This document shows, piece after piece, positions 10-12,135 of a stretch of DNA of 62,711 bases. The notes under the pieces are model-generated. The model saw only the letters and a program-made list of their open reading frames with translations. It searched no databases and had not been told where the DNA came from. Origin of the DNA: Desulfomonilia bacterium (GTDB lineage: Bacteria; Desulfobacterota; Desulfomonilia; UBA1062); contig DATCTV010000006.1 in the NCBI GenBank assembly GCA_036567785.1, positions 1-62,711 on the forward strand. The letters are read 5' to 3'. A program made the translations under genes and the position numbers. Position 1 is the stretch's first letter. Each line of letters opens with the position of its first letter.

Positions 10-716
10 GTCGCAATCCCTTCAATCAGGTCGTGTGGTTCGTTTTGATAACGAAAAATACATTCTCGTAGCGTGTGGGATTGTCGCAATCCCTTCAATC
101 AGGTCGTGTGGTTCGTTGGGAAAAAATGAAAAAATCAGGAGGGAAAAAATGAAAAGTCGCAATCCCTTCAATCAGGTCGTGTGGTTCGTTTTCTGCCATC
201 GTAGATGGCAGGAAATTTTTCTACGATAACGTCGCAATCCCTTCAATCAGGTCGTGTGGTTCGTTTGTCTCTCCTCCTACAACACCTCCCTCGAAATGGT
301 TTGGGTCGCAATCCCTTCAATCAGGTCGTGTGGTTCGTTGGAATAAAAAAAGAGGAAATTTTTTCTGCTATCGTAGATGGTCGCAATCCCTTCAATCAGG
401 TCGTGTGGTTCGTTGATGGATTTAAAAAAGAAAATATTTTTACCGGATAGTTGAGTCGCAATCCCTTCAATCAGGTCGTGTGGTTCGTTTACATAATTGA
501 AGAGAACAGGGTCAAATCAATCATGGCTCGTCGCAATCCCTTCAATCAGGTCGTGTGGTTCGTTATGAATATAGAAATTCCCGTGACCAATAGGTCACTC
601 GAGGGCGTCGCAATCCCTTCAATCAGGTCGTGTGGTTCGTTTAAAGAGCCAAATGCGCCGAAATACAGAGTGTTTTTTAGGGTCGCAATCCCTTCAATCA
701 GGTCGTGTGGTTCGTT
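10..716 (-). CRISPR. CRISPR array, 10 repeats and 9 complete spacers, type III-A associated
   Basis: Ten identical 35-nt repeats start at 10, 83, 156, 231, 305, 380, 455, 530, 607 and 682. On the plus strand each begins GTCGCAATCCCTTC and ends GTGTGGTTCGTT. The nine spacers are 38-42 nt. Bases 1-9 can be the end of another spacer, so the array may continue left of the window. The minus-strand repeat ends in ATTGCGAC, which resembles the 8-nt 5' tag of type III crRNAs (commonly ATTGAAAC-like). With all cas genes also on the minus strand and an AT-rich leader at 717-990, minus-strand transcription is inferred, and the newest spacers should be those nearest 716. The repeat has no strong internal hairpin. 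No degenerate terminal repeat is seen at the right end. Confidence 0.97.
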
Positions 717-990
717 AGCTTCCCGTTTTTCATATAAATATTCAACAGGTTAGACATATCTTTTTGAGAACCTGTATGAATGCTTCCAAAGAACAGAGTC
801 ATCATTTTCTTTTTGTCCACCTTATCGTTATATCTTATTGTTTTAATTAATTTATTTATTGCATGAGAACCTATGGTACTTGTTCAGATCCATCATGTTC
901 CATATAACCGCTGACAGCAGTTATCTAAAAGGCATTCGTTAAACAAAATCAATTATCATCAAGAAGGTTCTCAAAATTTTGTATATCTTA
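717..990 (-). promoter_or_regulatory. CRISPR leader (inferred)
   Basis: This AT-rich stretch without a convincing gene lies between the array and the cas2 genes. If the array is transcribed leftwards, it is the leader that carries the crRNA promoter and the signal for new spacer insertion next to the repeat at 682-716. It contains three copies of a GAGAACCT-type motif, two of which form a long inverted repeat (separate entry). I could not fix a -10/-35 pair with confidence. Confidence 0.6.
762..976. repeat. Inverted repeat TTTTGAGAACCT inside the leader
   Basis: TTTTGAGAACCT at 762-773 is exactly mirrored by AGGTTCTCAAAA at 965-976. A third, shorter copy (TGAGAACCT) lies at 864-872 in the same orientation as the first. 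The arms are too far apart for a simple hairpin, so protein binding sites, or the borders of a small element, fit better than an RNA structure. Role unknown. Confidence 0.6.
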
Positions 991-2803: not shown

Positions 2804-4030
2804 CTATTTATAGTCAATCCATGGAAACTGGCATTGTCTGGCAATGTCAGGAAAATTCGGGCATGCAAACTCTGCGAGTTCAACGACATTTTCTTTCAGA
2901 CCTTTGAATATTGTTTCATTTATCGGATCAAGGCCATGCGCCATAATAGAGCTGTTTCTGTTTTTAAGATAACCTTGAAGCTGTTCATTTTCATAGAAAA
3001 TCTTTCCTGATTCATGCCCAAGTTCTGATAAAAGATCATAGGATGCAAACAACCCTATTTTGATTTTATTGTCTTTTTTGTCGCGTGTTTTTTCCAGCTT
3101 TTCCCTTCTTGATTCTGGAACTTTATCAATATTTACATCTCCTGTTTTAATTTTGTAGCAAGACGAGAGTATATGTTGAGCAATAAGCTCCACAACCCTG
3201 TAAAGCCTCGCCACGGCATCGTCATATTTCCCTTCTACAGACCGCCTGACAGCGTTATTGAAAATATCGATTATAAGCTGAGGCCTGACTGTTTCAGGTT
3301 TATTGTTTGATAGCAATTCAATCAGTTCGCAGGCTTTTTCTTCGGGTTTAAATATTTCAAAACCTGTCCAATTAATTTTGGATAATTTTTTGTATGCCTT
3401 TTTGTGATTAAAAATATCCCAATTTTCATAAAATGATGAGATATCTTTTAAAGCTTTAAGCCTGTTGTTTTCAGAAGCGCTCAAGGTATTTTTGTTTATA
3501 CCTGATATAATTTGAAGCGCTGGAGAAAACCTTAAATTGTATATCATCTGTTCAGCAAGCTTCAGATCATGCAGTGAAAAGACAGCCTGCGGTATTATCG
3601 TGCGAAACTCCTCTGTGCCATCCTTGACTACACCGCCTTCCCTTTTTCCTGTTATGTATTTTATCGACTGACACTGGTTGTATGTTGCTGAAAGGACTGC
3701 CCCGGCACTCATTGCCTTTGTGCCGCTTGTGAAATCGACCTCAATATCATCGAGAGCAAAACCTTTTAATCTAAGGTTTTCAAATACTTCATTTATAACA
3801 GAAAAAACTGACTGGAAATTTTCCATGTCGTTCAGCTCGATTATCTCGAATGCGTCTTCAGCAAGTTGGGATTCACTGGCTATTGTTGTTGCATAATCCC
3901 TGCTTGTCTGTGTTGCAATCAGCACAAGAAAATCCGGCCTGCTGTTTTTAACGGATTTGACAAGAGGTTTCACAATACATGTTGATGGATTTGTCCCTGT
4001 TCCAACGGTCATGATTAAGGCTCTTTTCAT
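2804..4030 (-). CDS. CARF-HEPN effector, TIGR02710-type (Csm6/Csx1-like)
   Basis: A 408-residue protein with an N-terminal CARF-like Rossmann domain (MTVGTGTNPS at the start, DFTSGTKAMSAG near 105-117) and a helical C-terminal region with the HEPN nuclease motif R358-x6-H365 (RNSSIMAHG). This layout matches the TIGR02710 family. By analogy, cyclic oligoadenylate made by Cas10 would bind the CARF domain and switch on RNase activity in the HEPN domain. It lies between the toxin-antitoxin pair and cas1 in the same direction as the csm genes. The nucleotide ring size it senses cannot be read from the sequence. Confidence 0.88.
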   Translation of the reverse strand: MKRALIMTVGTGTNPSTCIVKPLVKSVKNSRPDFLVLIATQTSRDYATTIASESQLAEDAFEIIELNDMENFQSVFSVINEVFENLRLKGFALDDIEVDFTSGTKAMSAGAVLSATYNQCQSIKYITGKREGGVVKDGTEEFRTIIPQAVFSLHDLKLAEQMIYNLRFSPALQIISGINKNTLSASENNRLKALKDISSFYENWDIFNHKKAYKKLSKINWTGFEIFKPEEKACELIELLSNNKPETVRPQLIIDIFNNAVRRSVEGKYDDAVARLYRVVELIAQHILSSCYKIKTGDVNIDKVPESRREKLEKTRDKKDNKIKIGLFASYDLLSELGHESGKIFYENEQLQGYLKNRNSSIMAHGLDPINETIFKGLKENVVELAEFACPNFPDIARQCQFPWIDYK

Positions 4031-4042
4031 ATAGGCTAATCC

Positions 4043-4531
4043 CTATTCATTTTCGTTCTTGCAGACTGTTTCTATAAAAGAATCAGACAACCACAGGCCG
4101 GATGATTTGATTCTGAAAAGCGCTTCTCTTACAGAAGAGATAAGTTCATTTCGTCTAGCCATAACAATGACAGCAACTGTCCCGATATACTTGCAGCCGA
4201 ATAATTCGGCGCATTGCCTGGCCTGCATATCATCAACAACGGCGTAAAATTCTTTATTCTCAAGAGCGTAAGAGATAACCGATGTTTCACCTTTGCCTAA
4301 ATCCCATCCGGCAACCCGGGCGTCCTGATAATTTCCGGACGCCAGTTCTATGTTTTGAAATGAAAACATCTTGTCTATTTGAACATCATTCAAACCTTTT
4401 ACAGTAACCTCTGCCAATACTTCGTTTGTGATAATTATATGTTTAAAGAGTTCTGACAGCAGGTGATAAAAACCGGATTTTGAGAGGCTTATAATAGGAG
4501 AGGAATTTAATACCACATTATTTATCTGCAT
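4043..4531 (-). CDS. PIN-domain toxin, DUF3368-like
   Basis: A 162-residue protein resembling the DUF3368 group of PIN-domain RNases. It has the early NSSPII segment, the central AEVTVKG with a conserved acidic residue, GKGETSVISYAL, and AVVDDMQARQCAE, which supply the acidic metal-binding residues of a PIN fold. Its start overlaps the UPF0175 gene by 14 nt, as expected for an antitoxin-toxin operon. It lies between csm5 and the CARF-HEPN gene, so it may act as an extra defence effector, or simply be a passenger module. Confidence 0.85.
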   Translation of the reverse strand: MQINNVVLNSSPIISLSKSGFYHLLSELFKHIIITNEVLAEVTVKGLNDVQIDKMFSFQNIELASGNYQDARVAGWDLGKGETSVISYALENKEFYAVVDDMQARQCAELFGCKYIGTVAVIVMARRNELISSVREALFRIKSSGLWLSDSFIETVCKNENE

Positions 4532-4769
4532 CTTTCAAAACCTCATCGGGCGAATACTGAAAAGGGGAAACTTTGAATCTGGCAAGCGAGAGAATAAAAT
4601 CAGCCCTGGTCAATCCAGCTATCTCTGCGGCCTTTTCCTGAGATATCATTCCCATCTCAAACCATTTCACAGCCGCAGCCAGCCTCATTTCTTCCCCGAA
4701 TTCAACAGGACTTTTCCTTATCGAAGAAAAAACATCTTCAGGCATGTTAAGACTCAGTGTTATCGACAT
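4518..4769 (-). CDS. UPF0175 family antitoxin
   Basis: An 83-residue protein of the UPF0175 family. The central segment EEMRLAAAVKWFEMGMISQEKAAEIAGLTRADF is quoted here in parts: EEMRLAAAVKWFE followed by a small helix-turn-helix-like AAEIAGLTRADF. UPF0175 proteins are the usual partners of DUF3368 PIN toxins and probably bind DNA to autoregulate. A GGGGGA ribosome-binding site sits just upstream of the ATG. The roughly 100-nt gap back to csm5 could hold a separate promoter. Confidence 0.87.
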   Translation of the reverse strand: MSITLSLNMPEDVFSSIRKSPVEFGEEMRLAAAVKWFEMGMISQEKAAEIAGLTRADFILSLARFKVSPFQYSPDEVLKDADK

Positions 4770-4871: not shown

Positions 4872-6257
4872 TCAGACCTCAAATATCTTAACGATTCTGA
4901 ACTGATTCCCCTCCTGCTCGACTTCAACTTTTGCCTGTGTCGGTTTGCGCTTATTAACGACCTTCTCAAACAGACTTTCCGGAATAAGGTCTTTACCTGT
5001 GCAGGCTGCCTTTTTGCCTTCGGATGCCGCCGTCAGCCTCTGGTCGCCGGGCGACCATGATAGAATCGCTTTCTCCCAGGTAAGAGAGGTTGTAGGAACC
5101 GGTTCATAAGCTGGTTTGATCGGGGTGGCGGTAACAGCTGTTTCTTCGTAACTGTCATTAATGGCCGAAATTTCATCCGCTAACGGCTCATTTCTTTGGA
5201 ATGTCACCCAGCCGAAGGGTGTGAGGCTTGAATTTGTCGCAGGTTTGGGATCAGTCGAGGCAAGCCAGATAGTTGTAGCTGAAGGAAGAAATAATGGCGG
5301 GGCATTCTTTGGACCCTTTATTTTTATATTTCTCAGCCCTTCGATTGTTACGGCTTCCGCACCCGAATGCCTCCCAAGGCAAATTAAAAACCCTCCTTCT
5401 GGTATTTCCTTCAACACACATTGAGATGCGCCTATTTTTGACAGGGATGAATTTTCCCTGCCAAGTTCTTTTGAATAAAAAGATGTTGCGCTGTTGAAAA
5501 GGGATTGAATCTTGACTGGATTGTTTATTCCGGAACCTTGAAGCGCATCATCGACAGTTATCGTCCCTTTGAAATACGAGCCCGGCTCTATTATTTCAAG
5601 TATCGGGCTCAAGTTTTCATTTGAAACCTTTCCTGGATTTTTCTTTCTGTTGATAGCATAGACAATTCTTGTCCTGACGATTCCAACAGGCATGAAGTCT
5701 GAAACTTTAACCATACGGAAAGGGTCGGTTGCAAAAGCGCCTCCATCAAGGAGCTGTTTTTCGAGCTGATCGGCCTTCATATTTCTATCCGGCCTTACAT
5801 TCTTTTTCTTTTGAATCTTGTTGAGCCACGCAGTTCTTAAAGCTCCTTTTATTGATGAGCCCGGGATATAAGGCTGATTTGTATTAGGGTTGAAAATCGT
5901 TCTAGCAATGGTAAAGTTGTTGAGTTCGTTCCTGATCTTAGTTTTATCGCCTAAAGGAATTTTGAGCTTGTCTTTGTAATGAGAGATGAAGCCATTACTT
6001 ACCTTCACCCTGTATCCATTCATCTTTTTTGCGCTCATGAATTTCATGATTTCCATGCGTGACTCGACCGTTCCCTTTTCGCAGATATCAGAAAACCTTT
6101 TTCTTTGAGCTTCATCCAGGGATTTGATGAAGTCCATCGGATCAAAGGAGACGAGCTCTGATCGGGATTCATCAATCACAAACCCCGTCGGCTCATAGTC
6201 TTCATCACATCCGATGTGAACAGGGCATATCGTTTTAAGATAAAGTGTTATTGTCAT
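4872..6257 (-). CDS. csm5: Type III-A RAMP protein Csm5
   Basis: A 461-residue RAMP protein that caps the 3' end of the crRNA in the Csm complex. It shows the RAMP fold opening ITLYLKTICPVHIGCDE and the glycine-rich YIPGSSIKGALRTAW signature near 130-145. It overlaps csm4 by 4 nt (ATGA). The C-terminal third carries a Pro/Thr-rich linker and a charged tail that look poorly conserved. It is the last csm gene before the embedded toxin-antitoxin pair. Confidence 0.93.
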   Translation of the reverse strand: MTITLYLKTICPVHIGCDEDYEPTGFVIDESRSELVSFDPMDFIKSLDEAQRKRFSDICEKGTVESRMEIMKFMSAKKMNGYRVKVSNGFISHYKDKLKIPLGDKTKIRNELNNFTIARTIFNPNTNQPYIPGSSIKGALRTAWLNKIQKKKNVRPDRNMKADQLEKQLLDGGAFATDPFRMVKVSDFMPVGIVRTRIVYAINRKKNPGKVSNENLSPILEIIEPGSYFKGTITVDDALQGSGINNPVKIQSLFNSATSFYSKELGRENSSLSKIGASQCVLKEIPEGGFLICLGRHSGAEAVTIEGLRNIKIKGPKNAPPLFLPSATTIWLASTDPKPATNSSLTPFGWVTFQRNEPLADEISAINDSYEETAVTATPIKPAYEPVPTTSLTWEKAILSWSPGDQRLTAASEGKKAACTGKDLIPESLFEKVVNKRKPTQAKVEVEQEGNQFRIVKIFEV

Positions 6258-7273
6258 AGCTCCACCCCCGCAGGCAGTTTAAAGGGAAGATAGATCGAAT
6301 ATCCCTGATGGATGGTCACAAAATCATTGACCTTTGAAATGCCCTTAATGCCCTTGCCGAGATATGGTTTTTCTGAAAGTCTGCTGTCTTTCGGGATGAT
6401 TACAGCACCTTCATCAGCCATGATTACCGGCGACTTGAACGGCCTGCCGGATTTCGCCATGACATCGCCATGCCTGCCGTAGCGGACAAAGGGCGTGAAC
6501 AGGCAGTCTTTGCATAATGCGGAATCGGGTATGGACGGCGACATGGTGTAAAGAGCGTCGCCTTCTCTCGGTTTCGGAACTGGCAGTTCTTCTACTTCTC
6601 CGAGTGAAAACCTTCCCATTCCAGTAGAAGCATCCCTGCCGAACCCGCTCTGACCTATTCTGGTCAGACCGTCTTGTATCCTTTTAATATCTGTTGCCTC
6701 TTCATCAATGAGAACGAATATAGCAAGCTCAACTGTCGGATAATAGACAAAGGCATCGACCGAATAAGGTGCGAAGCCTTCACCTGTCGTTCCTGTAAGA
6801 CGGTTAATGGAATTGTGCTGGCGTTCAAAATTTTCAATGAAGCCGCCTTTTGTTGATTTACATTCAGGGCATGCTTTCAACAAATCGGAACTGTTTAAGA
6901 AGGCCTGCTCGTTAATGTTTATTTTCAAATCCTCGCCAACCTTCATCCATTTCTTCTTAAGGTTATCCTTGCGTGTTTCCATGTACCGCCTTTTGTCTGA
7001 TGCAGTATCCCTGAAAAGCATTGAAGGAGGAAGGTCAGGCCTTTTGAAAGCAAACCACGACTTGTTCTTCTGACTTTCAAGAAATACTGGCCAAGCCGAT
7101 GAGAAAACAGCAAACGGCTTTTCTGTATAACAGTCTGCCCATTTTTTAAGACCGCCTTTCAGCAGTGAATCATCATAAGCCGCCTGCCAGCAGATATGGC
7201 CGAATATCGTATCGCCTTTAAGCGGCGTCCCAAAGGACGATTCTGGTTTTATTATTATTGAATAAAGTTTCAT
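6254..7273 (-). CDS. csm4: Type III-A RAMP protein Csm4
   Basis: A 339-residue Csm4, which binds the 5' tag of the crRNA and docks onto Cas10. The start FGTPLKGDTIFGHICWQA is the family hallmark (SxFGTPLKGDTLFGH-like), and a later GQSGFGRDASTGMGRF is the glycine-rich RAMP loop. CPECKST near residue 137 is a small CxxC pair that might bind metal. It overlaps csm5 by 4 nt. An 87-nt gap separates it from csm3, with GAGGT just before the ATG as ribosome-binding site. Confidence 0.94.
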   Translation of the reverse strand: MKLYSIIIKPESSFGTPLKGDTIFGHICWQAAYDDSLLKGGLKKWADCYTEKPFAVFSSAWPVFLESQKNKSWFAFKRPDLPPSMLFRDTASDKRRYMETRKDNLKKKWMKVGEDLKININEQAFLNSSDLLKACPECKSTKGGFIENFERQHNSINRLTGTTGEGFAPYSVDAFVYYPTVELAIFVLIDEEATDIKRIQDGLTRIGQSGFGRDASTGMGRFSLGEVEELPVPKPREGDALYTMSPSIPDSALCKDCLFTPFVRYGRHGDVMAKSGRPFKSPVIMADEGAVIIPKDSRLSEKPYLGKGIKGISKVNDFVTIHQGYSIYLPFKLPAGVEL

Positions 7274-7360: not shown

Positions 7361-8041
7361 TCAAAAGACTTTCAGATTGTCGAATTTGTCTTTCAGTCCT
7401 GCATCATCGAAGTGAAATTTCACCCTGCCGTAGCCCCGGCTGCCGCTGCCGCCGAGTGCGTCATGTTCGAGGAGCTTAAGACCTTCAAGCAGATAGTCAA
7501 GTAGGCTGTCGCCCTCGTTATCAAACACCTTAAGGTTAATGGAGAAGTCGAAAGATATTCCAGCAGGAACGCGCTCGGTCTGCCTTGGGTTGGAAGCTGT
7601 TCCGCTGATACGGTTGATAGTGTTTTCAGCTTTTACCTCAAACTTCGAGAGCTTGCTTTTTTTCCATTCATCAGTGAGCATGCAGTCCGCAAATGAGACC
7701 CTGGTAGGGCCAATGGCTGAAGAATCTTCCTTGTCATCGCCGCCGGAACCAAAAAGCTTGAGGATGTTTTCTGCTTCAGAGTTTCCATCTACTCTTTTCA
7801 GATCGCCAATTTTAACAGGGCTTCCTCCTGTATTTGCCATCAGCCCGCTTTTAAGCTCGAGCAGTGAGCGGACTTTTCCTTTAAGTGATGAACCGGGTAT
7901 ATATGGCTCGTCAGTATGCGGATGCCTTACAACCGGATTGTCGGTTCCGCCGATGTGCATTTCAGTGTCGCCAGCGCCTATATGAAGGCCGCTCAAAAGT
8001 TCGATTGTTCCTTTGATTTCTTTGATATCTATAAGTTTCAT
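7361..8041 (-). CDS. csm3: Type III-A RAMP protein Csm3 (target RNA nuclease)
   Basis: A 226-residue Csm3, the backbone subunit that cuts target RNA at 6-nt intervals. HIGAGD near 20-25 supplies the catalytic Asp (Asp25), followed by MHIGG. EPYIPGSSLKGKVRSLLE and GSGSRGYGRVKF are the RAMP signatures. I took the ATG at 8041 because AGGAGG lies just upstream and the N-terminus then matches the family. A 28-codon upstream extension is open but would overlap csm2. Confidence 0.96.
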   Translation of the reverse strand: MKLIDIKEIKGTIELLSGLHIGAGDTEMHIGGTDNPVVRHPHTDEPYIPGSSLKGKVRSLLELKSGLMANTGGSPVKIGDLKRVDGNSEAENILKLFGSGGDDKEDSSAIGPTRVSFADCMLTDEWKKSKLSKFEVKAENTINRISGTASNPRQTERVPAGISFDFSINLKVFDNEGDSLLDYLLEGLKLLEHDALGGSGSRGYGRVKFHFDDAGLKDKFDNLKVF

Positions 8042-8054
8042 TTCATTCCTCCTT

Positions 8055-8498
8055 TTAATCCTTTGCGTGTAAACGATAAAAACCCATGAATGCTTCGAAT
8101 AAATTCGTAAAGACTTTAAGATCATTTGAAGTATCTATTTGTTTTATTGAGTCCTTTAAAAAATCAGTAAACTTTTGTGTTATGAAATCCCTTCCTTGTG
8201 CGTATGCAGCTTTTGCGATTATCATATTTATATAAGGTTTAAAGATTTCCGGTTGTTCAGGATTGATTTTTGAATTTGCCCTTGAATTGATCATTAAAAC
8301 TTCATCATAGAACTTTCTTATTTGAGTTCGTTTGTTTTTTTTCTGTTCAATCTTTTTTTCAGTTGAACCATCTTTGTTTCTAACAGTTTTCTCTACTTGA
8401 CCCTCTTCCGCAATAGCTCTGGCTAAGTTGTCAGCAGTCTCATTAAACAATTGGGGTTCGATAAACCCTTTTTCTTTGTTCATGTAAAATTTAATCAT
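8055..8498 (-). CDS. csm2: Type III-A small subunit Csm2
   Basis: A 147-residue, mostly helical, Lys-rich protein. The segment TQIRKFYDEVL and the following helices match Csm2, the small subunit that lines the crRNA-target duplex in the Csm complex. It lies between cas10 (9-nt gap) and csm3 (13-nt gap). Its position and the lack of Cmr-type genes set the subtype as III-A. A charged linker (KDGSTEKKIEQKKNKR) sits near residues 42-57. Confidence 0.9.
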   Translation of the reverse strand: MIKFYMNKEKGFIEPQLFNETADNLARAIAEEGQVEKTVRNKDGSTEKKIEQKKNKRTQIRKFYDEVLMINSRANSKINPEQPEIFKPYINMIIAKAAYAQGRDFITQKFTDFLKDSIKQIDTSNDLKVFTNLFEAFMGFYRLHAKD

Positions 8499-8507
8499 AT
8501 AACCTCC

Positions 8508-11084
8508 TTACCTTCTATTATAGAGTATTTCCCAGACAGCGGCTTTGAGCTTCGAGCCGTAGTTTTCCAGGTTTTTCACCATCATTTGTATAAACTCATT
8601 CACCTTTTCGTCTCGCTTGCCGTCCTTCAAATCCTTTGCGATGTTACGGGATGCCGAATAGTTGAAAAGGGCTCGCCATTTGAGCGGCTGCATGTCATCA
8701 ATGCTGACATGGGCATTCTTTCCCGGCGGCCTTATGATATCCTTGGCCTTTTGCGCCATCTCCATGAAATAATTCATTCGGTAGAGCATGGCGCTTCCCA
8801 TTGTCCTGTCGCTAATATATTCGAGCAGCTTTTCCTTTACCGGTTTGAGTTTGTTGAATTCATTCCATGTCATTGTTTCGCCAAAAATTGTTATGCTGTT
8901 TCTGCCGTTACCCTTGGATTCGCCAAGAGCCTCTTCAGAGTGATAGGCCAGCGAATCAACGGGCGTGTTCGGTCTTTCAATCGTAATTCCCGCTGAAAGG
9001 TGTATTTCGGGATTGCCGCAGGTGTATCTGCCGAACTCTTCATTTATAACTCCTGCCAGCTCGATAATTCGGTTCCAAGGGCCGATGAGGAACAGGTCGT
9101 CGCCACCTGCAAAAACCGTATAGACATTCTGGAAGTTTGCATCAGTTTTCAGCTTCCAGGGAAGCCAAAGGCTGAAGAACTGATTCATCTGGCGGCTGAG
9201 TGAAGCCAGGCGCGAAGCTGTGAACAGTTTTTCTTCAATACCGCAGGACATTATCATTCCCAGGTTGTCAACATCGGCCTTTAAAACACCAAGCGCCTCT
9301 ATGCCGGAGAATTTATCCATTGATATTGGATTAAGCGCCTTTTTAGAAATGTGACTGAAAGTTTTTGGGGCACCTTCGTTTATCATTTCAATTAGTTCAA
9401 GTTTTTTTGCTTCGCTCTTTCCACCACTTAGAAGTCTGTCATCAAACTGGTCTTCTTCTGAATATTTTGGCACATAGCCGTTGATAAACTTTGCTGTTAC
9501 ATCTTTTGACGCCTCGCCTTTTTCATTGATTGATATGTCCCAGTATTTAAGAAGCGAGCCTCTTCTTGCAAGTTCATTGAGCGCGCCTGTTGTAAAACCA
9601 ATCTGATATTCTCCGAAAACAGGCTCGAGAAGCTTATCGCCGTGCAGGTCCGCATTAACAGTAGTTATTGCAATTCGTTCATTTTTCACCAGATTGGCTC
9701 CAAGGAAGATATGGTCGCGGCAGATTTTGCAGGCTGAGCCATTTTTGACAATTGCTGAACCTTCCACTTCTTTATCTGATGGCCTTTTGCCGCAATAAGG
9801 GCAAAGCGCTTTATCGAGTTCGTTATTGAATGAGTCCAGATAGCCTTCAACAGCGCCAAGCGAATTAAGATTGAGTTTTCTGAACTTGCTTACTTCAAGT
9901 GCGCCCCCCAGCCTGTCCCAAAAGGCTGAGAAATTACCTCCGACAAAATCATTGGGAGACGCTTCAAGAACTGAAATACCAATTGCCGTTTCACCGAAAG
10001 AGATTTTTAAAAACCAGTTGTTGATCTTTTCTCTGACCTCTTCGACTGCACTTTTTGCGGCTTCAGTGTTCGGTGCAAGTATCGTGAACTTTCCGGCCGC
10101 ATTCAGGATAACCGAAGTATGCGGCAGACCGATTTTACGGCAAAGCATATCGGCGGCAAGCTCTGCAAAAAGTGAAACCGCAAACGAGCGCCCCCTTAAA
10201 ATCTTGCTGCGGTTTTCACCTGAATCACCGCTGGGTCCGGAAATAAAACTCTGTATGCCATAAAGATCGCCGGTTATCAGAAGAAATTTTTTTGGTTCAT
10301 AGTCCTGTATAATCTGCAAATCCATGTTGCCTTTGTGATAAAGATATAAAGCAGAAGCGAACGCAGAGGTCATCCTGCTGTGATCATAAAGTGAGATATC
10401 TGGTATTTTTTTTCCAGCCCTTGCCGCAGGTATGCATGTTGTGAAAATCATCATGAGGCTATCTAAATGCTCGAACCAAAGGGCGGTATTTTCATCTTTA
10501 TGATGAAGTCGCTCAAGCGCATACACAAACTCGTCAAAAAGGTTTTTGTATTCCACTCTGGCTTTATCATCATCTGAGGGCACAATATCTTTCTTTTGAT
10601 CCGGAAAAATATTTTCAGGCGAAAGGGGCTTTAACGGATAAGCATAATTCGAAGTATTGTTTGTTTGCAGAGCATTTTCAAACAATGTTTCAAGACGGGT
10701 CTTCCTGTAATCCTGCCATGCAATTGCTTTGTTGTATTCGTCAAAACGCTGCCTGTCCCAGCCGCTTGAGATACGGTCGGCCATTGCTATTATCCACTGC
10801 ATCGGCGTTCCTGGTTTGTGATGTCCTGCGGCAAGATTTATAAATGTATCGTCAAGACCCCATCCTGATTTATTGAACTTATCAGGTAGCAGTTTTTCAA
10901 TATGATCGATAAATGCTGCTGTATAAACAGCATGTCTGTGCGTTGGAACGCCGTTATACTCCGGTTGGTAAAGTCCCGAATTATCATTGATAAATCCCGG
11001 TAAAACATTAATGCCCTCCTGCGCCAGCTTGCCAATGTCATGCATGAATCCTGCAAGAGCAATTTTCAGGGTCGTCTCATCCAT
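8508..11084 (-). CDS. cas10: Cas10/Csm1, HD nuclease and cyclic-oligoadenylate synthase
   Basis: An 858-residue large subunit. The N-terminal HD domain has His15-Asp16 (FMHDIGK) plus GHHKP. A zinc-binding cluster uses Cys428/Cys431 and Cys452/Cys455. The second palm domain has an intact GGDD at 660-663 (FAGGDDLFL). Both known activities, single-stranded DNA cleavage and synthesis of cyclic oligoadenylate on target RNA binding, are therefore predicted to be present. The synthase site fits the CARF-HEPN effector at 2804-4030. Its ATG overlaps the cas6 stop by 1 nt (TAATG). Confidence 0.97.
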   Translation of the reverse strand: MDETTLKIALAGFMHDIGKLAQEGINVLPGFINDNSGLYQPEYNGVPTHRHAVYTAAFIDHIEKLLPDKFNKSGWGLDDTFINLAAGHHKPGTPMQWIIAMADRISSGWDRQRFDEYNKAIAWQDYRKTRLETLFENALQTNNTSNYAYPLKPLSPENIFPDQKKDIVPSDDDKARVEYKNLFDEFVYALERLHHKDENTALWFEHLDSLMMIFTTCIPAARAGKKIPDISLYDHSRMTSAFASALYLYHKGNMDLQIIQDYEPKKFLLITGDLYGIQSFISGPSGDSGENRSKILRGRSFAVSLFAELAADMLCRKIGLPHTSVILNAAGKFTILAPNTEAAKSAVEEVREKINNWFLKISFGETAIGISVLEASPNDFVGGNFSAFWDRLGGALEVSKFRKLNLNSLGAVEGYLDSFNNELDKALCPYCGKRPSDKEVEGSAIVKNGSACKICRDHIFLGANLVKNERIAITTVNADLHGDKLLEPVFGEYQIGFTTGALNELARRGSLLKYWDISINEKGEASKDVTAKFINGYVPKYSEEDQFDDRLLSGGKSEAKKLELIEMINEGAPKTFSHISKKALNPISMDKFSGIEALGVLKADVDNLGMIMSCGIEEKLFTASRLASLSRQMNQFFSLWLPWKLKTDANFQNVYTVFAGGDDLFLIGPWNRIIELAGVINEEFGRYTCGNPEIHLSAGITIERPNTPVDSLAYHSEEALGESKGNGRNSITIFGETMTWNEFNKLKPVKEKLLEYISDRTMGSAMLYRMNYFMEMAQKAKDIIRPPGKNAHVSIDDMQPLKWRALFNYSASRNIAKDLKDGKRDEKVNEFIQMMVKNLENYGSKLKAAVWEILYNRR

Positions 11085-12052
11085 TATTCTTCTCCTTCAA
11101 AAAATAATTCAAATTTTCCCAGACCGAATGAAGTCTGTTTTCCGATATGTACTGTTTCGCAGAATTTCAGAATTGGAAGGAAATTATTCAGGACATTGCC
11201 TTCATAAATTATATTACCCACCAGACCCCCCATCAGCATTTCCTGATCCTGTCGGCTCGAATACCTCCGCCAGTCATGCCATGAAAGGTCAGAGTGAACT
11301 GTCCTGACTGTTTCGGCAAGGCTTATCAATCCCTTGTAATCCAGTGCAGGCTCGCCTTTGCCGTATGTTTCAAACAAGGTCGAAATCCGCCTCAAACATG
11401 CCCTTATAAGAACATGAAAAGGTAGTTCCGCACGTTTGAGATTGTTTTCAAATTTCAGCCTCAGCGGCGTTTGCAGCACGACTGTTATTCCAGATATTTC
11501 CGATTCCTTTATTTTTGCAAACCTTCCGGCGCTTATATTTTTAGTAAATGAGCCTTTCACAAGCTTCCGCTCTTTGCCTGAATAAATTAATTTTCTGTTT
11601 GCCTTTACTGACACCAGATTGAATGTGGAACGGAAGCCATCAATCATTTTTCCGATTCCCGTCTGCCCCATCTGTTCAATGGCATAGACAAAATAGGGGA
11701 GATATTCATTGGCTTTCCCGAGAAGTATAATATCAAAATCAAAGAGTTCACCTTTTGTCCAATGTGTTTTTTTTGTGATTGGTGCTTCTATCACATAGGG
11801 ATGGGGAGGAGCTGCTACATGATGTTTTTCACCAGAATCTTCAAACTTTCCAGGTTCAAATATAAAAGGATATATACAGGACTCATTAAGCAGGCAACTG
11901 TTACATTCCTGAAACCTCAGGGCGCAAACCACTTTTTTTAAAGATAAACCAAACACCCCTCTGAATGTAGAGCCTTTGAATTCAGGAAGTATACAATCAG
12001 AATCAAGTACACATTCAAATTTATATTTTCCAATTTCCATAAAAAGTCTCAT
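11084..12052 (-). CDS. cas6: crRNA-processing endoribonuclease Cas6
   Basis: A 322-residue RAMP protein of the Cas6 type that carries the label 'CRISPR system precrRNA processing endoribonuclease'. The N-terminal FKGSTFRGVFGLSLKK and C-terminal HIGKQTSFGLGKFEL glycine-rich loop identify it. A cysteine cluster near residues 43-60 (CALRFQECNSCLLNESC) could bind zinc. It is the first gene of the minus-strand operon, divergent from ribD across about 80 nt of AT-rich DNA. I chose the ATG at 12052 over an in-frame TTG one codon earlier; neither has a good ribosome-binding site. Confidence 0.9.
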   Translation of the reverse strand: MRLFMEIGKYKFECVLDSDCILPEFKGSTFRGVFGLSLKKVVCALRFQECNSCLLNESCIYPFIFEPGKFEDSGEKHHVAAPPHPYVIEAPITKKTHWTKGELFDFDIILLGKANEYLPYFVYAIEQMGQTGIGKMIDGFRSTFNLVSVKANRKLIYSGKERKLVKGSFTKNISAGRFAKIKESEISGITVVLQTPLRLKFENNLKRAELPFHVLIRACLRRISTLFETYGKGEPALDYKGLISLAETVRTVHSDLSWHDWRRYSSRQDQEMLMGGLVGNIIYEGNVLNNFLPILKFCETVHIGKQTSFGLGKFELFFEGEE

Positions 12053-12135
12053 CAATAAATTATATATAATTATATGTGTTTTATCGGAAAAAATATATCA
12101 TTTAAATTACTTAAAAAAATTTTGGTTTATGAATT

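Follow-up and report, generated by a model that had tools for sequence, protein, structure and literature searches.

The type III-A (Csm) CRISPR array native to a Desulfomonilia bacterium carries three related spacers in one orientation, and it has probably sampled a family of hairpins at least three times, with the common strand most simply put down to selection for RNA targeting or to acquisition itself. The window analysed here (62,711 nucleotides) is the whole of contig C6 of a draft genome of 3.96 Mb in 64 contigs, and the array occupies positions 10–716 on its minus strand, with ten identical repeats of 35 nt, nine complete spacers, and one end cut off by the start of the contig. In crRNA sense (minus strand) the repeat reads AACGAACCACACGACCTGATTGAAGGGATTGCGAC. 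Elsewhere in the genome, copies of this repeat were found only at positions 1–1071 of contig C30, where 12 repeats run in the opposite orientation and the terminal one is slightly degenerate. The geometry fits a single array split by assembly, whose leader would lie beside cas2 on C6 and whose oldest end would lie on C30; the two parts together hold 20 complete spacers. The presumed leader (717–990, minus strand), recognized purely by its position between cas2 and the first repeat, is 69% A+T.

All genes adjoining the array lie on the minus strand and together form a type III-A locus. Nearest to the array are two cas2 genes, at 991–1371 (second copy, PF09827 E-value 7e-22, TIGR01573) and 1293–1592 (first copy, PF09827 E-value 5e-21), which stand in tandem, overlap, and are listed at 126 and 99 amino acids, alongside a single cas1 (1589–2752; PF01867, E-value 3e-78, its sole Pfam match). 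These are followed by a gene for a CARF-HEPN ancillary RNase of the TIGR02710/Csm6 kind (2804–4030; TIGR02710 E-value 5e-62, Csm6 HEPN model PF09670 E-value 9e-37), the effector expected of a type III-A system, and then by csm5 (4872–6257; TIGR01899, 2e-19), csm4 (6254–7273; TIGR01903, 1e-21), csm3 (7361–8125; TIGR02582, 2e-65), csm2 (8055–8498; PF03750, 8e-17), cas10/csm1 (8508–11084; TIGR02578, 3e-199) and cas6 (11084–12055; PF10040, 3e-17). The models for cas10/csm1 and for csm2, csm3, csm4 and csm5, which define type III-A, all scored over their cut-offs, and Cas10 carries both the MHDIG motif of the HD domain and the AGGDD (GGDD) motif of cyclic oligoadenylate synthesis. No reverse transcriptase (RT) was found fused to cas1, which matches Cas1 models only, or among the ten cas-locus genes scanned. 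The system, type III-A (Csm), has Cas1 together with two Cas2 and lacks a reverse transcriptase; the csm genes are the only interference genes beside the array, no other CRISPR system was seen in the window, and a genome search found no Cas8c. Between the CARF-HEPN gene and csm5 (4043–4769, minus strand) lies a UPF0175 (PF03683) and DUF3368 (PF11848) gene pair, which, judged from its domains, would have the make-up of a toxin–antitoxin pair with a PIN-like toxin.

The related spacers are S1 (191–230, minus strand) and S2 (340–379, minus strand) on C6 and S3 (C30:261–303), which in window orientation read TTCTGCCATCGTAGATGGCAGGAAATTTTTCTACGATAAC, GGAATAAAAAAAGAGGAAATTTTTTCTGCTATCGTAGATG and GAAATGAAGTATTTTCAGCCATCGTAGATGGAGGAAAATACTT, respectively. 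The likeness of S1 and S2, as originally predicted, holds: 16 of 17 bases are identical in the same orientation (shared TTCTGC[C/T]ATCGTAGATG, at the plus-strand 3′ end of S2), so that the two crRNAs would share one polarity. Within the window, no further copy of the shared motif was found at up to 3 mismatches (0.08 such matches expected), and an equal or better pair score arose in 1.3% of shuffled arrays, the shuffles keeping dinucleotides only. S3, the third relative among the 20 complete spacers, was found by a genome search with the merged S1–S2 sequence, and it carries the core GCCATCGTAGATGG within a longer hairpin whose flanks differ from those of S1 and S2. S1 and S3 share an exact 14-mer followed, after a one-base gap, by AGGAAA. 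All three pairwise matches in the trio are on the same strand, and shared runs of at least 12 bases between spacers are expected only 0.02 times in a shuffled array. The S1–S2 match alone is moderate evidence of kinship and the trio is strong evidence; the kinship of the spacers beyond chance is thereby made firm by S3.

Structurally, S1 read in target sense (plus strand) contains the hairpin CTGCCATC-GTA-GATGGCAG, a perfect 8-bp stem followed by the T run GAAATTTTT, just as had been noted from the sequence. As single-stranded DNA it folds at −7.9 kcal/mol (z −4.0), with an alternative pairing ATCGTAGA/TCTACGAT also allowed, and S3 folds into a long hairpin (z −7.3) with the same apex, CCATC-GTA-GATGG. 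A terminator-pattern scan of positions 1–1100 finds the S1 hairpin (stem 188–216, partly inside the repeat), a match not beyond chance, with 0.9 expected in shuffles. The hairpin is at most a candidate intrinsic terminator, conceivable as such only in a target transcript, which would read as the plus strand, the crRNA being the minus strand. Two further spacers have internal structure of their own: that at 565–606 (minus strand) bears the hairpin GTGACC-AATA-GGTCAC, and that at 118–155 (minus strand) contains an internal 23-nt tandem repeat, which in target sense reads twice as a ribosome-binding site plus start codon (AGGAGGGAAAAAATGAAAA).

Viruses and plasmids are the default expected origin of CRISPR spacers, and a foreign origin is presumed for these three. 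No protospacer of S1, S2 or S3 was found in the genome itself, in the relatives searched, in phages, in plasmids or in IMG/VR. The merged 63-mer gave best E-values of 0.5 and 1 against phages and plasmids, respectively; each array part, searched as one sequence against phages, gave no convincing match; all spacers searched against the genome itself gave no protospacer; and 59 relatives and 41 class members gave matches at chance level only. Exact core matches, five in IMG/VR and four in GTDB contigs, were set aside as chance, the clear cases being SAIVDG-type coding sequence. The gapped core with AGGAAA had 11 matches in IMG/VR, which lie in open frames of 117–831 codons and were likewise judged to be chance, and more specific core patterns had no matches.

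The polarity of the array was assigned from the repeat ends, the position of the presumed leader beside cas2, and analogy with other arrays. In presumed crRNA sense, the repeat runs from AACGAACC to GGGATTGCGAC, a 3′ end common to type III-A arrays of the phylum, and this end gives an ATTG-type 8-nt crRNA tag, ATTGCGAC, identical in 30 such arrays. On this assignment the crRNAs would be minus-strand transcripts, able to pair with RNA of plus-strand sequence. Independent support for the polarity rule comes from the strand on which Shine-Dalgarno motifs occur: among 559 spacers from 30 type III-A arrays located close to csm2 genes, strong motifs numbered 51 in target sense and 10 in crRNA sense, compared with 28 and 27, respectively, among 914 I-C spacers. 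With related spacers removed, a lean towards target sense is seen in 20 type III arrays and the reverse in none. This skew agrees with, and reproduces, a bias of type III spacers towards the coding strand that has been published (PMC8482600). A preference of type III-A spacers for translation starts was also considered and rejected in favour of a strand bias, as the target-sense excess is offset by a shortfall on the opposite strand, leaving a total close to that of I-C.

Same-strand overlap between spacers is a habit of type III-A arrays in this phylum. Our comparison set comprised 30 type III-A arrays (559 spacers) and 23 I-C arrays (914 spacers) from the one phylum; a simple finder based on exact 20-mers identified the arrays, and their repeat ends gave the type. 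At an ungapped score of at least 13, in a comparison designed after the array had been seen, the type III-A set contains 18 pairs with partial overlap, spread over 10 of the 30 arrays, 16 of them same-strand and 2 opposite, including two clusters of three, versus 14 pairs in 7 of 23 I-C arrays, 8 same-strand and 6 opposite. Under a stricter exact-match count, the same-to-opposite ratios are 14:3 for type III-A and 7:6 for I-C. It is therefore normal for a type III-A array to contain two or three overlapping spacers on the same strand, and their polarity is most simply accounted for by selection for RNA-targeting guides or by capture biased to the non-template strand. Priming is known in type I systems and partly in type II. 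The original prediction had suggested primed or strand-biased acquisition; priming is not supported here: no CRISPR type besides III-A was seen in the window, and since same-strand overlap is ordinary in such systems (16:2), priming is not needed.

How the three spacers came to resemble one another admits several explanations. S1 and S2 had been read as overlapping protospacers offset by 23 nt, taken from a single site that two variants of the same phage would share, during recurrent attack by related phages. Their 16/17 identity speaks for this, as do flanks that join into a plausible 63-nt stretch and the same-strand overlapping pairs offset by 9–16 nt in other type III-A arrays. However, the searches of phages, plasmids, IMG/VR, the genome itself and its relatives yielded no single locus holding both protospacers, and the merged stretch nearly repeats itself (AGGAAATTTTTTCTGCTATCG/AGGAAATTTTTCTACGATAAC, or AGGAAATTTTTTCTGC.../AGGAAATTTTTCTACG...), as would be expected of a multi-copy element. 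S3, with the same core between other flanks, suggests instead a family of hairpins, either dispersed or diverging. We consider the one-site explanation rather unlikely; the better reading is a family of related stem-loops, which explains S1, S2 and S3, whereas a single twice-sampled site explains two. Similar spacers might also have been made within the array through duplication of a repeat–spacer unit followed by divergence or recombination, and adaptation-independent unit duplication has been reported (PMC9048733). Unit duplication keeps register, but here the shared part occupies one end of S1, the other end of S2 and a central position in S3, and what remains of the three is unrelated, so that such an origin is very improbable. 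Chance resemblance of A+T-rich, low-complexity sequence around a short palindrome would be in keeping with the 1.3% of shuffled arrays that match the S1–S2 score, and with the exact core also occurring in unrelated coding DNA, but it is scarcely credible given three mutual matches on one strand, an exact 14-mer among them.

A further explanation looks to DNA shape: adaptation in this type III-A system would favour hairpin DNA, and the RT-free system would repeatedly have taken one hairpin family, perhaps a replication, transfer or attenuation stem-loop, on account of its fold. A preference of this kind is reported for RT-free type III-A adaptation in Streptococcus thermophilus, where the stem-loops include single-strand origins, oriT and attenuators (PMC9048733). 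In the present array, four of the 20 spacers fold below −11 kcal/mol, where shuffling predicts 0.69, and three of 20 have a perfect stem of at least 8 bp, versus 12 of 559 elsewhere in the type III-A set (Fisher p 0.012), although two of these three are homologous and hence not independent, and the thresholds were set with the data already in view. Across the phylum such stems are only weakly more frequent in type III-A than in I-C spacers (2.1%, 12/559, versus 1.1%, 10/914; p 0.12), and overlapping type III spacers are no more hairpin-prone than the rest (5/33 versus 57/520). The hairpin excess is in line with a stem-loop preference and is suggestive only; we think it unlikely that shape drove the repeated capture.

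We thus favor the explanation by a stem-loop family, under which Cas1–Cas2 would have captured DNA of related stem-loops, with the core TTTTC[T/A]GC[C/T]ATC-GTA-GATGG...AGGAAA, on at least three occasions. The family would be carried by a putative virus or plasmid lineage, either as several copies dispersed through a single genome or at a site that diverged between relatives. Once captured, the three spacers would presumably serve in immunity: their minus-strand crRNAs would pair with plus-strand transcripts, the sole polarity able to activate Cas10–Csm and its CARF-HEPN RNase, and the same-strand pattern would most simply mean that RNA-targeting spacers were selected or acquired.

This locus resembles RT-free type III-A systems such as those of Staphylococcus epidermidis and S. 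thermophilus in its Csm1-5, Cas6, Cas1, Cas2 and CARF-HEPN RNase, and differs from such systems in having two cas2 genes and an internal DUF3368/UPF0175 pair. Capture of DNA without a PAM and spacers in mRNA sense would be expected here as in those systems. The coding-strand bias described previously (PMC8482600) likewise concerns same-polarity spacers able to pair with RNA, but here it shows in spacers that partly overlap within one array and in Shine-Dalgarno motifs rather than in mapped targets. With the S. thermophilus stem-loop preference (PMC9048733) the present array shares hairpin-bearing spacers in an RT-free type III-A system; that preference was measured in acquisition experiments, whereas the present array, a single natural one, shows no more than a small excess.

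The old end of the array has a separate peculiarity. Three repeats there are each interrupted, at the identical position, by a 67-bp element of three hairpins (C30:181–247, 852–918 and 992–1058), flanked by ATTGA direct repeats, with insertion at one TTGA site. At least seven diverged copies of the element occur elsewhere in the genome, each copy read being preceded by TTGAT; no copy was found in 23 other family members, and the other arrays examined contained no interrupted repeats. A fragment of an IS200-like Y1 transposase, apparently with an in-frame stop, lies at C33:2174–2494 (PF01797, E-value 2e-32). Our guess is that the element is REP- or PATE-like and moved by an IS200/IS605-style enzyme with a TTGA(T) target, and the CRISPR repeat looks like a repeated target of it.

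Taken by itself, this array is a clean natural case of repeated same-strand capture by a type III-A system. If capture were driven by shape, it would be a natural counterpart of a stem-loop preference known so far from S. thermophilus experiments, and the source of the hairpin, if found, would test DNA shape as a guide of type III-A adaptation outside the laboratory. At the level of the phylum, same-strand pairs are usual, occurring in a third of the type III-A arrays examined and nearly always with one polarity, and the strand of Shine-Dalgarno motifs in spacers offers a target-free route to array orientation and to RNA-targeting bias.
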